Source of the DNA: Sutterella wadsworthensis 2_1_59BFAA
GTDB taxonomy: Bacteria > Pseudomonadota > Gammaproteobacteria > Burkholderiales > Burkholderiaceae_F
Direction of reading: 5' to 3'
Assembly (NCBI RefSeq): GCF_000297775.1
Contig: NZ_JH815515.1
Location: 287,407 to 351,406 of the forward strand
Length of the DNA stretch: 64,000 bases
Numbering within the stretch: the first letter of the stretch is position 1; the number at the start of each line of letters is the position of its first letter. The position numbers and the translations under genes are program-made. Positions 23,404 to 25,428 of this stretch are shown here, piece by piece. The notes below the pieces were generated by a model that was not told where the DNA came from, did no database searches, and saw nothing but the letters and a program-made list of their open reading frames with translations.

Positions 23404-23556
23404 AAAAAAAGAGGCCAGCGGTCCTTGGGACTGCGAGCTGAAGTTTTCCAACCAAAAGGAGCGGAGGACTCATGCATTGCTGCGGCGTTCTCCATGCCCT
23501 CCATGAGCCGAATCCCGCCCGCCATCCGTTTCGAACTTCCCGGGAGATGTAACAAG
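23404..23556 (-). ncRNA. Repeat-family small RNA, copy A
   Basis: Minus-strand unit of about 150 bases. In order: GTTACA (complement of 23549-23554), GAAAC (23528-23533), GAGAACG (23486-23492), a small stem GCA-GCAA-TGC with a GNRA loop (23474-23483), the invariant 20-mer CCTCCGCTCCTTTTGGTTGG (23448-23467), and a terminator hairpin ending in seven U (23404-23410). The 20-mer can pair with AAAAGGAG-type ribosome-binding sites. It reads open as protein only by running through its terminator, so it is probably non-coding. Confidence 0.65.
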
Positions 23557-23690
23557 AGGTCGGAACGAAACACTTCGAGCATCTCGGAACAACCCCTTGA
23601 AACGCCTCTGCAGGAGACGCCCCGCATGACTTTGAGCGAAGAACGCCCCACAGGATTCTTGCATCTCGTTGCAAGCGCCCCGCCGAGGTC

Positions 23691-23832
23691 AAAAACAAGG
23701 CCTGCAGTCGTTTTCCTGCAGGCCGAAATCATGTTCTTGAAGTCTCCGGAGGGCAGCTTCGCCTTCCTGATGCATTGACTGTACCTGAAGGGCCTCCCGG
23801 TGCTGTTTCGTCATTGGGCCTTCTGTAACAGA
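23691..23832 (-). ncRNA. Repeat-family small RNA, divergent copy B
   Basis: It shares the upstream GTTACA (23825-23830) and GAAAC (23805-23810) with the same 17-18 base spacing as the other copies and ends in a strong terminator (ggcctgcagg stem, 23699-23724, then a U-rich run). It lacks the 20-mer; a related CTCCGGAG segment follows a small stem instead. Likely a decayed or diverged sibling. Confidence 0.45.
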
Positions 23833-24008
23833 GCTTCCTGCCGCGCCGCTCCGCCTCCCTGCCCTCCGCACACAAGACGCCTCGTGCAGAGGGATATATC
23901 GCCCGACGGCGCTGCACGGCCTCGTGGAACGCACTTGCATTCTGACGCATTTTGGCGGGATTCCGCCGCAGCCCGACGAAGCAGGCAAACCCGAGGCTCC
24001 GAAGAAGC

Positions 24009-24164
24009 AAAAAAAGAGGCCCGCGGGCAACGCCTGCAGGCCTGAAGCTTTCCAACCAAAAGGAGCGGAGGTCCTCCGTGCTCGTCGCACTTCGTTCTCC
24101 ATGTCTCGTACTTTAGGGCATGTCGCTTCGCGAGCTGTTTCGACTTCCCGGCGGACGTAACAGA
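24009..24164 (-). ncRNA. Repeat-family small RNA, copy C
   Basis: Same order as copy A: GTTACG (24157-24162), GAAAC (24137-24142), GAGAACG (24093-24099), stem GTGC-GACGA-GCAC (24078-24090), the 20-mer (24052-24071), then a terminator with seven U (24009-24015). The small stem differs from copies A and D in sequence but not in position, which is covariation expected of a folded RNA. Confidence 0.65.
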
Positions 24165-24370
24165 GCGCAGGACGAAACCTCGCCCGCGAACCTAGGGTTA
24201 ACCCTCCAGACGCTACTGCGAGAGGTCTTTTCAGTTGCGGGCGCAGGCGAAAGGCTCGCGGCGACTTTTGCATTCCGTAGCATCTCAGGCGCCTTTCTTA
24301 CGGGTTCTCGGAAGGAAAATTCCTCCGAAAACCCCTGCGGCACTGCATAACGGCATGCTAGAATGCGCTC

Positions 24371-24535
24371 CGCACTCTTCAGGGGAGTAGCTCGGGCGGC
24401 CGCAACGGCCGCCGTCCTGCGTCAACATGCTTGAAGCGCCTTGCTTTATGGCGCAGGAATGCGAGCCTCGGGGACTCATCGTTCCCGGCGCGGCATGAGC
24501 AAGACCTGCGGTGTGTCCTCTTCCGGATAAACCGC
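24371..24535 (+). promoter_or_regulatory. yybP-ykoY-type manganese riboswitch
   Basis: The two invariant Mn-binding loop strings are present: TTCAGGGGAGTAGC (24378-24391) and GAGCAAGACCTGC (24497-24509), with GTCAACA and GCGAGCC between them. The CAGG/CCTG pair closes the four-way junction. This class raises expression of Mn exporters when Mn2+ is bound, and the next gene is an UPF0016-type transporter, a known partner. Aptamer borders are approximate. Confidence 0.85.
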
Positions 24536-24589
24536 AAGGACGCCCAGGACGCGCCCGGGCCGGCGCATCGGGCAGGAAGAGGATGCGCC
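24517..24589 (+). promoter_or_regulatory. Alternative pairings of the riboswitch expression platform
   Basis: CCTCTTCC (24517-24524), at the 3' edge of the aptamer, is perfectly complementary to GGAAGAGG (24575-24582). That second segment lies in the loop and stem of another hairpin (GGCGCATC 24562-24569 / GATGCGCC 24582-24589). The two folds exclude each other, as expected of a switch. No U-run follows, so control may be on translation. Confidence 0.5.
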
Positions 24590-24636
24590 CGCAGTTTCTT
24601 AACACATGCCCCACGCGCCGTCCCCGACAATCCCCC

Positions 24637-25218
24637 ATGCTTGAAGCTCTTCAGACTCTTCTTCTCTCCACCGGCGTCGTCACCGCAAGCGAAATCGGCG
24701 ACAAGACCATGCTCATGGCCATCTGCCTCGCCGCCAGATTCCGCAGGCCTGCTCCCATCATCTGGGGCATCCTCGTCGCCACGGTCCTCAACCACGCGAT
24801 GGCGGGCGGCGTGGGCGCCATGCTCGCCACCCTCATCACGCCCGAAATCCTCCGCTGGATCCTGATCGTCTCGTTCGCCGCCATGGCCGCCTGGATGCTC
24901 GTCCCCGACAAGCTCGACGACGAGGAGACGGACGAGGGCCGCATGAAGCGCTTCGGCGTCTTCGGCACCACCGTCGTGCTCTTCTTCCTCGCCGAAATGG
25001 GCGACAAGACCCAGCTCGCCACCGTGGCGCTCGCCGCGAAGTTCCCCGCCGAGGCCCTCTGGGTCATCTCGGGCACGACGCTCGGCATGATGATCGCCGA
25101 CGCGCCCGCCGTCTTCATCGGCAACAAGCTCGCCGAGCGCCTCTCTATGAAGCTCATGCGCCGGATCGCCGCCGCGGTCTTCGCCATCCTCGCCGTTGCC
25201 GCCTGGCTCGGCTGCTGA
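24637..25218 (+). CDS. UPF0016/Gdt1 (TMEM165)-family manganese/calcium exporter
   Basis: 193 aa membrane protein with two repeats of three helices. Each repeat carries the family motif: SEIGDKTML near residue 18 and AEMGDKTQL near 122. The Asp/Glu of these motifs bind the cation. Members export Mn2+ or Ca2+ in exchange for protons and protect against Mn overload. A Mn riboswitch just upstream supports Mn as substrate. The start at 24637 fits the family N-terminus (MLEALQTLLLS), but no Shine-Dalgarno sequence is seen, and C-rich sequence (tcccccatg) lies there instead. It is transcribed against the surrounding lipid A genes and sits among the repeat-family RNAs. Confidence 0.9.
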   Translation: MLEALQTLLLSTGVVTASEIGDKTMLMAICLAARFRRPAPIIWGILVATVLNHAMAGGVGAMLATLITPEILRWILIVSFAAMAAWMLVPDKLDDEETDEGRMKRFGVFGTTVVLFFLAEMGDKTQLATVALAAKFPAEALWVISGTTLGMMIADAPAVFIGNKLAERLSMKLMRRIAAAVFAILAVAAWLGC

Positions 25219-25266
25219 TCCTGCCGCACTCACCCCGCCGCCACGGCGGCAGGGGCCTGAAGCCTC

Positions 25267-25428
25267 GAAAAAAAATAAAAAAAGCCCGCGGTCTCAGTGA
25301 CAGCGGGCGAATAAATCCAACCAAAAGGAGCGGAGGACTCGTCGCCTTCCGGCGTCGTTCTCCGATGAGCTAACTTTACCTGACGAGCTCTCCGCCAAGT
25401 TTTCAGACGTCGGGGCAAATGTAACAAG
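25267..25428 (-). ncRNA. Repeat-family small RNA, copy D
   Basis: Same layout as A and C: GTTACA (25421-25426), GAAAAC (25399-25404), GAGAACG (25356-25362), stem CGCC-GGAA-GGCG with a GNRA loop (25343-25354), the 20-mer (25317-25336) and a terminator (gcccgc / gcgggc) with a long U-rich tail (25267-25283). It is separated from copy C by the Mn riboswitch and transporter. Confidence 0.65.

Follow-up and report, generated by a model that had tools for sequence, protein, structure and literature searches.

We examined the gap between the genes for a FabZ-like and an LpxA-like protein in Sutterella wadsworthensis 2_1_59BFAA, where related short elements lie in tandem. The window referred to below is the whole stretch of 64,000 nucleotides that was analysed, and positions are counted from its first letter. 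An initial annotation of this DNA had placed three minus-strand units at 23404-23556, 24009-24164 and 25267-25428, and units 1, 2 and 3 were found exactly there. It had also described a fourth unit as two boxes and a terminator with the 20-mer of the other three absent, and unit 4 (about 23691-23831) indeed has this form. The view of the fabZ-lpxA gap as an array of small RNAs holds in that all four minus-strand units are present, but the gap also houses a plus-strand gene for a GDT1-family transporter (24637-25218, PF01169) between units 2 and 3. In our main reading, to which we assign a probability of about 0.68, the units are four short, independent small RNA genes that share one promoter, probably activator-dependent, and the type-A RNAs of units 1-3 would block Shine-Dalgarno sites. 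The features of the array are listed here with the evidence for each.

23404-23496, minus strand: unit 1, predicted small RNA of type A with the terminator at its 3' end (R1 model match)
23448-23467, minus strand: unit 1, anti-Shine-Dalgarno 20-mer (repeat search)
23528-23553, minus strand: unit 1, boxes GTTAC-N16-GAAAC with a degenerate -10 position, TCATGG (pattern and alignment)
23691-23774, minus strand: unit 4, predicted small RNA, hairpin and strong terminator without the 20-mer (fold z -3.73)
23778-23829, minus strand: unit 4, predicted promoter GTTAC-N15-GAAAC-N21-TACAGT, 0 mismatches (pattern search)
24009-24103, minus strand: unit 2, predicted small RNA of type A (R1 model match)
24052-24071, minus strand: unit 2, anti-Shine-Dalgarno 20-mer (repeat search)
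24110-24161, minus strand: unit 2, predicted promoter GTTAC-N15-GAAAC-N21-TAAAGT, 0 mismatches (pattern search)
25274-25367, minus strand: unit 3, predicted small RNA of type A, with a T-rich end that runs on to 25267 (R1 model match, fold z -2.26)
25317-25336, minus strand: unit 3, anti-Shine-Dalgarno 20-mer (repeat search)
25373-25425, minus strand: unit 3, predicted promoter GTTAC-N16-GAAAA-N21-TAAAGT, 1 mismatch (pattern search)

The R1 model was built from units 1, 2 and 3 themselves together with two RNAs of the relative G058 (G058_2 and G058_3), so that the matches of these units to it are not independent. On the plus strand, directly upstream of the GDT1-family divalent-cation transporter gene, we observed a weak match to the RF00080 manganese riboswitch at 24377-24496 (24.7 bits where gathering requires 45; E 3e-4 with 2551 bases searched), which is plausibly a divergent manganese riboswitch.

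The 20-mer, CCTCCGCTCCTTTTGGTTGG, is letter-identical in units 1, 2 and 3. A repeat search of the window returned it as a family of three copies, alongside a GTTAC family of three copies. When a 21-letter version of the core was searched for with up to 3 mismatches, the 2.72-Mb genome contained three matches, all of them in units 1-3, and none to the reversed pattern; the invariance reported earlier was thus borne out, and the core occurs nowhere else in this genome. The exact 20-mer had no match in a wider collection of genome contigs. A 14-mer core followed by a T-run was found there in 71 stretches, of which one Sutterella record (LR994475.1) was counted as real and one other match came from Burkholderiales (Aquabacterium, L176); the other 69, from many phyla and judged by title, were taken as chance. 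In the type-A RNAs the core, CCUCCGCUCCUUUUGGUUGG, lies between the 5' hairpin and the terminator, and its proposed complementarity to Shine-Dalgarno-type sites was supported, which makes it a putative anti-Shine-Dalgarno core.

The upstream boxes behaved differently from the core. TGTTAC-N13-17-GAAAC matched three times in the genome, at units 1, 4 and 2, and its reversed form twice, so it is the clustering of the box pair that is unusual, while the pair alone is not rare. We aligned nine promoters, chosen by hand, which followed the pattern GTTAC-N15/16-GAAAC-N21-TA(A/C)A(G/T)T, with 20-21 bp from GTTAC to GAAAC and 21 nt from GAAAC to the -10-like hexamer. The hexamer stood at this fixed spacing in eight of the nine, unit 1 having TCATGG instead. 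Box variants were GAAAA (GAAAAC) in unit 3, GACAC in G058_2 and GTAAC in G058_3; a third GTTAC-like pair from a second relative, G056, had no -10 at the spacing and was left out. Because GTTAC and GAAAC keep a constant 21 nt ahead of the -10-like TA(A/C)AGT of units 2, 3 and 4, we read them as promoter. The common order of boxes described previously is present, but these two look like promoter elements and not like part of the RNA. With two of the three upstream boxes apparently belonging to a shared promoter, unit 4 would be a sibling by regulation and not by RNA, and the same would apply to three units of relatives, which likewise have no 20-mer.

How specific this promoter pattern is depends on the mismatches allowed. 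With the 16-nt spacing and up to 2 mismatches it matched in 31 of 67 genomes of the family, where reversed controls were at least as common, so 2-mismatch matches carry no meaning. At 0-1 mismatch the same spacing gave nine matches, six being the fabZ-lpxA clusters and three lying in other genera (G023, G026, G063); the reversed controls of this search were counted without division by mismatch number. In 12 genomes of the genus, the 15-nt spacing gave two matches with 0 mismatches, which were units 2 and 4, and all the rest had 2. Pooled over both spacings, eight of the 11 matches with 0-1 mismatch belonged to the fabZ-lpxA clusters, here and in two relatives. On the promoter reading the second box would fall at about -38 to -34 and overlap the -35 region. 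AraC/XylS-type activation involves a pair of direct half-sites spaced by about 21 bp, with the second one in contact with the -35 region, and the geometry of the boxes resembles that arrangement. Four of the nine promoters have GGGTT still further upstream, at -44 to -41 relative to GTTAC; unit 2 and G058_3 read GGGTTAACCC here. The distance to the proposed starts is about 100-115 nt, which puts the word at about 24200-24214 in unit 2. This word was spotted after the fact; it was equalled in 0 of 20000 shuffles, and the best of any word reached four in 2 of 500. About ten bases upstream of it lies GGCGT, present in four promoters and the best word of the real set. GGGTT and GGCGT are perhaps further activator sites.

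Under the promoter reading, the predicted RNAs start near CATGGAGAACG (CATGG), end each at a terminator of their own, and measure about 84-95 nt, in place of the transcripts of about 100-150 nt that had been expected. Fold z-scores were 0.17, -1.24, -2.26 and -3.73 for units 1, 2, 3 and 4, with 0 of 200 shuffles as stable as unit 4, and -2.44, -1.87, -2.01 and -2.51 for G058_2, G058_1, G056_3 and G056_1. Unit 1 is the weakest of the array, with TCATGG at the -10 position and a fold that does not exceed shuffled sequence in stability. All five type-A RNAs carry a small stem in the stretch that separates the 5' box from the core, always at the same position and with differing sequence. Singly, 144, 15, 17, 70 and 129 of 1000 shuffles were as stable as the stems of units 1, 2, 3, G058_2 and G058_3. 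Taken together, in stretches cut by hand between the fixed boxes, the five had a summed minimum free energy of -26.9; shuffles averaged -12.2, and 0 of 1000 reached the real value. The initial annotation was therefore right that the small stems change sequence yet stay paired, and both of its GNRA loops were recovered (GCAA in unit 1, GGAA in unit 3). Its claim of covariation stands in a modest form, with stems that differ but pair in five sequences and inner stems of 3-6 pairs. An RNAalifold structure on a plain MAFFT alignment of the type-A RNAs contained no compensatory pairs; MAFFT fails to bring the variable stems into register, and the case for covariation thus rests on the shuffle test and on the stems read directly.

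The predicted features of a type-A RNA are CCUCC and CUCCUUUU as candidate anti-Shine-Dalgarno stretches, a 5' hairpin, a weak middle hairpin and the terminator, with competing folds. In the best fold the outer stem is CGGAG/CUCCG in unit 3 and, in other letters, GGCGUU/AACGCU in G058_3. GGAG/CUCC could form in units 1 and 2, but the best folds of these two, like that of G058_2, favour other pairs. For each of the five RNAs the fold prediction leaves the U's 3' of CUCC mostly unpaired (probability 0.67 or more) but puts the CC of CUCC into pairs (probability of being unpaired at most 0.22), and the core is therefore not just an open stretch. The five type-A units show no conserved reading frame, and coding by them is unlikely. 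The own terminators, the anti-Shine-Dalgarno core and the changing paired stems partly support the earlier suggestion of sibling RNAs that bind Shine-Dalgarno regions, except that unit 4 belongs by its promoter only. Judged from these features, the units are very probably real small RNA genes of the sibling anti-Shine-Dalgarno kind, new as a family.

We compared the region 3' of fabZ at 12 loci of relatives, 11 of them within the same genus and one in a different genus. Two loci have the exact box pair, those of G058 and G056, whose FabZ proteins are 89% and 84% identical to that of S. wadsworthensis; the figure is 74-80% in nine other same-genus relatives. Eight of the ten other loci were viewed in part, by eye and over 600 bases each: an lpxA-like start follows close behind fabZ in G057, G055, G052 and G062, and the remaining four have different sequence after fabZ. 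The last two (L051, L052) were covered by the pattern scan only. G058 has three units, two of them of the 20-mer type (G058_2, G058_3), and G056 has two units in addition to its incomplete pair. Between units 2 and 3 of G058 (L121) we noted, by eye, transposase-like frames and a gene for a 1134-aa protein resembling autotransporter serine proteases; with these insertions, the fabZ-lpxA gap seems to be a place that collects them. In the 67 family genomes, the R1 model (E up to 0.1, strict filters) found the five RNAs from which it was made and a match in G014 (26.2 bits, E 0.046), which was rejected since it looked like a bare terminator. A shallow search of 399 genomes of the order, strictly filtered and limited to 10 scored candidates in each, matched only the genome studied here; G058 cannot have been among the 399, because it would have matched. 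Among the genomes searched, type A occurs only in this species and one relative, and the promoter is common to three genomes.

These results allow several other explanations of the array to be weighed. GTTAC and GAAAC might be the -35 and -10 elements of an ECF-sigma promoter, in which case the RNAs would start about 23-26 nt further upstream and be about 107-121 nt long. A spacer of 15-16 nt would suit such a promoter, and in this genome the exact box pair occurs only at the array; if this were the correct assignment, however, the TA(A/C)A(G/T)T that follows GAAAC at exactly 21 nt in eight of nine units would be left unexplained, and we consider it unlikely. The narrow distribution and the degraded unit 1 would be expected of decaying repeats, that is, duplicates of one element with no current function. 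We regard decay as very unlikely, given that the core, the promoter spacing and the stems were kept while the rest diverged, also between species. Small protein genes are hardly credible. Units 1 and 2 do read MEN...SAPFGWK from an ATG at the proposed start, but MEN and SAPFGWK are common to just these two of the five units; an ATG is missing at this place in unit 3, the frame of G058_2 ends after five codons, the peptide of G058_3 is unrelated, and the frames of units 1, 2 and G058_3 pass through the terminator.

A further alternative concerns the class of the RNAs and accepts that they are real. No Rfam family reached its gathering threshold in the window, as the statement that the units match no recognised class would have it, but their logic and layout are like those of NmsR and RF02278. 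The type-A units could be divergent true members of RF02278 that have gained a hairpin at the 5' end; this family, Betaproteobacteria toxic sRNA, comprises the Burkholderia double-hairpin RNAs, and its RNAs are expected to inhibit growth when overexpressed. Unit 3 matched weakly over the whole RF02278 model at a loose threshold, scoring 18.6 bits where gathering requires 50, and a CU-rich core, a short linker and a terminator follow each other in the same order, by eye. In RF02278 the CU-rich anti-RBS sequence lies unpaired ahead of the terminator hairpin; type A has a core of this kind, with its U's predicted to be mostly unpaired and its CC to be paired. Genome-wide, however, unit 3 had an E of 0.36 and units 1 and 2 were not listed, and at E up to 1 the family matched in 47 of 67 family genomes but also in 8 of 14 controls. 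We therefore counted only the members over the cut-off, found in 2 of the 67 genomes, both of other genera. Neither the exact boxes nor the full GTTAC/GAAAC promoter pattern with up to 2 mismatches occurred at any of 30 loci from the RF02278 search. Membership is in our estimate improbable. A match to RF02278 on contig 5 of the S. wadsworthensis genome looked like a bare terminator and was set aside. At one locus of another genus (L080; G044, genus g15) we saw, by eye, a hairpin with the loop GCTCCTTTAA closed by ACAC/GTGT, followed by a T-rich linker and a GCCCG terminator; this could represent an intermediate form linking RF02278 to type A.

If type-A RNAs pair with Shine-Dalgarno sites, candidate targets should be found among start regions. 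AAAAGGAG-N4-9-ATG occurs at 20 sites in the genome against 1 for the reversed control, and 2 of the 20 open no frame of more than 14 codons. Pfam placed five of the products (amidohydrolase, FAD-binding, Fe-S, arginase-family and HypC-family proteins), the rest being judged by eye. The 20 sites do not prove targeting, AAAAGGAG being an ordinary Shine-Dalgarno sequence. Nor was there a broad enrichment of CCAAAAGGAG-N3-10-ATG in the carriers of type A, with 1 site outside the cluster in this genome, 4 in G058 and 0-5 in each of ten others. The best candidate is the amidohydrolase gene at G000:C1:22138, in whose leader CCGACCAAAAGGAG could pair with CTCCTTTTGGTTGG over 14 nt, G-U allowed. The G058 leader would pair over 15 nt on the same terms, and ten leaders of nine genomes that lack type A over 7-10 nt, some of these ten copies (53-55% identity) being possible paralogues and the G054 start being ATT. 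Predicted duplex energies were -23.7 and -18.8 kcal/mol for the carriers and -8.3 to -15.0 kcal/mol for the ten other leaders. The pairing block is kept between the two carriers, and the rest of the leader aligns poorly; the carriers are also closest to each other at the amidohydrolase gene itself (84% identity). This comparison covers one gene, and L233 (G058) and L234 (G052), at 43% identity, and lower-listed matches were left out of it. If the amidohydrolase is truly targeted, leaders are expected to retain GACCAAAAGGAG only alongside type A.

The mechanism that we propose for the four small RNA genes would begin with a dedicated activator, perhaps of AraC/XylS-like geometry, that binds GTTAC and GAAAC and turns the cluster on, the GAAAC box overlapping the -35 region. 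A short RNA of about 84-95 nt would follow the -10-like hexamer and end in the terminator. In type A, CCUCCGCUCCUUUUGGUUGG would then pair with Shine-Dalgarno sequences of the AAAAGGAG type that continue with CC or GACC, and would block translation initiation of metabolic enzymes, the amidohydrolase first among them. A more far-reaching version is doubtful, and we offer it tentatively: a lineage-specific regulon consisting of small RNAs only, in which one dedicated activator drives 2-4 cassettes at the fabZ-lpxA gap, the RNA payload changes by exchange or rewriting under a constant promoter, and target leaders, such as that of the amidohydrolase, co-evolve with the payload. The exact box site lies only within the array in this genome, and the payloads are either type A or unrelated hairpin RNAs. 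If real, the array would be a compact case of sibling anti-Shine-Dalgarno RNAs evolving under one conserved promoter, and would supply a first concrete target for such Sutterella RNAs, with predictions at the level of sequence. It would also bear on whether RNAs such as NmsR and RF02278 share descent or arose repeatedly.

A literature search for small RNAs in Sutterella found nothing, and the comparison turns to other bacteria. CcsR1-4 of Rhodobacter sphaeroides are homologous neighbouring small RNAs with C-rich, anti-Shine-Dalgarno-like loops, transcribed together with the gene of a small protein from a single promoter, whereas each Sutterella unit has its own boxes. LhrC1-5 of Listeria monocytogenes are laid out in tandem, and their CU-rich motifs have a role in their action. 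The literature on LhrC1-5 describes such CU-rich motifs and a multicopy small RNA under one regulator, LisR (PMC4132741, PMC5880928); the organism is unrelated, and the regulator is known for Listeria. The Burkholderia double-hairpin RNAs ncS03/05/27/62 (RF02278) have a CU-rich anti-RBS core, a hairpin and a terminator, and there are three to five homologues per genome, with lengths of 57-67 nt (ncS27, 92 nt) and a common upstream motif in three of the four B. cenocepacia copies (PMC5688073). Bordetella S17 has been described as homologous to them (PMC11722255, preprint). The Burkholderia loci are scattered over the genome, in contrast to the tandem Sutterella units, which fall below the Rfam threshold; in having a CU-rich putative anti-RBS core, a hairpin and a terminator, several copies and an upstream motif of their own that recurs among the copies, the Sutterella units resemble them. 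NmsRA and NmsRB of Neisseria meningitidis are tandem siblings in one intergenic region, with three predicted stem-loops, UC-rich anti-Shine-Dalgarno stretches both between SL1 and SL2 and within the loop of SL2, and metabolic targets in the TCA cycle (PMC5362039). The NmsRA promoter is sigma70-like (TTGACA/GATAAT), that of NmsRB is weaker, and RelA exerts control; the passages on the Neisseria RNAs mention no GTTAC/GAAAC boxes (PMC5362039). Compared by description, the tandem layout and the placement of the putative anti-Shine-Dalgarno stretches are alike, and on the best reading the Sutterella RNAs would act like NmsR or RF02278.
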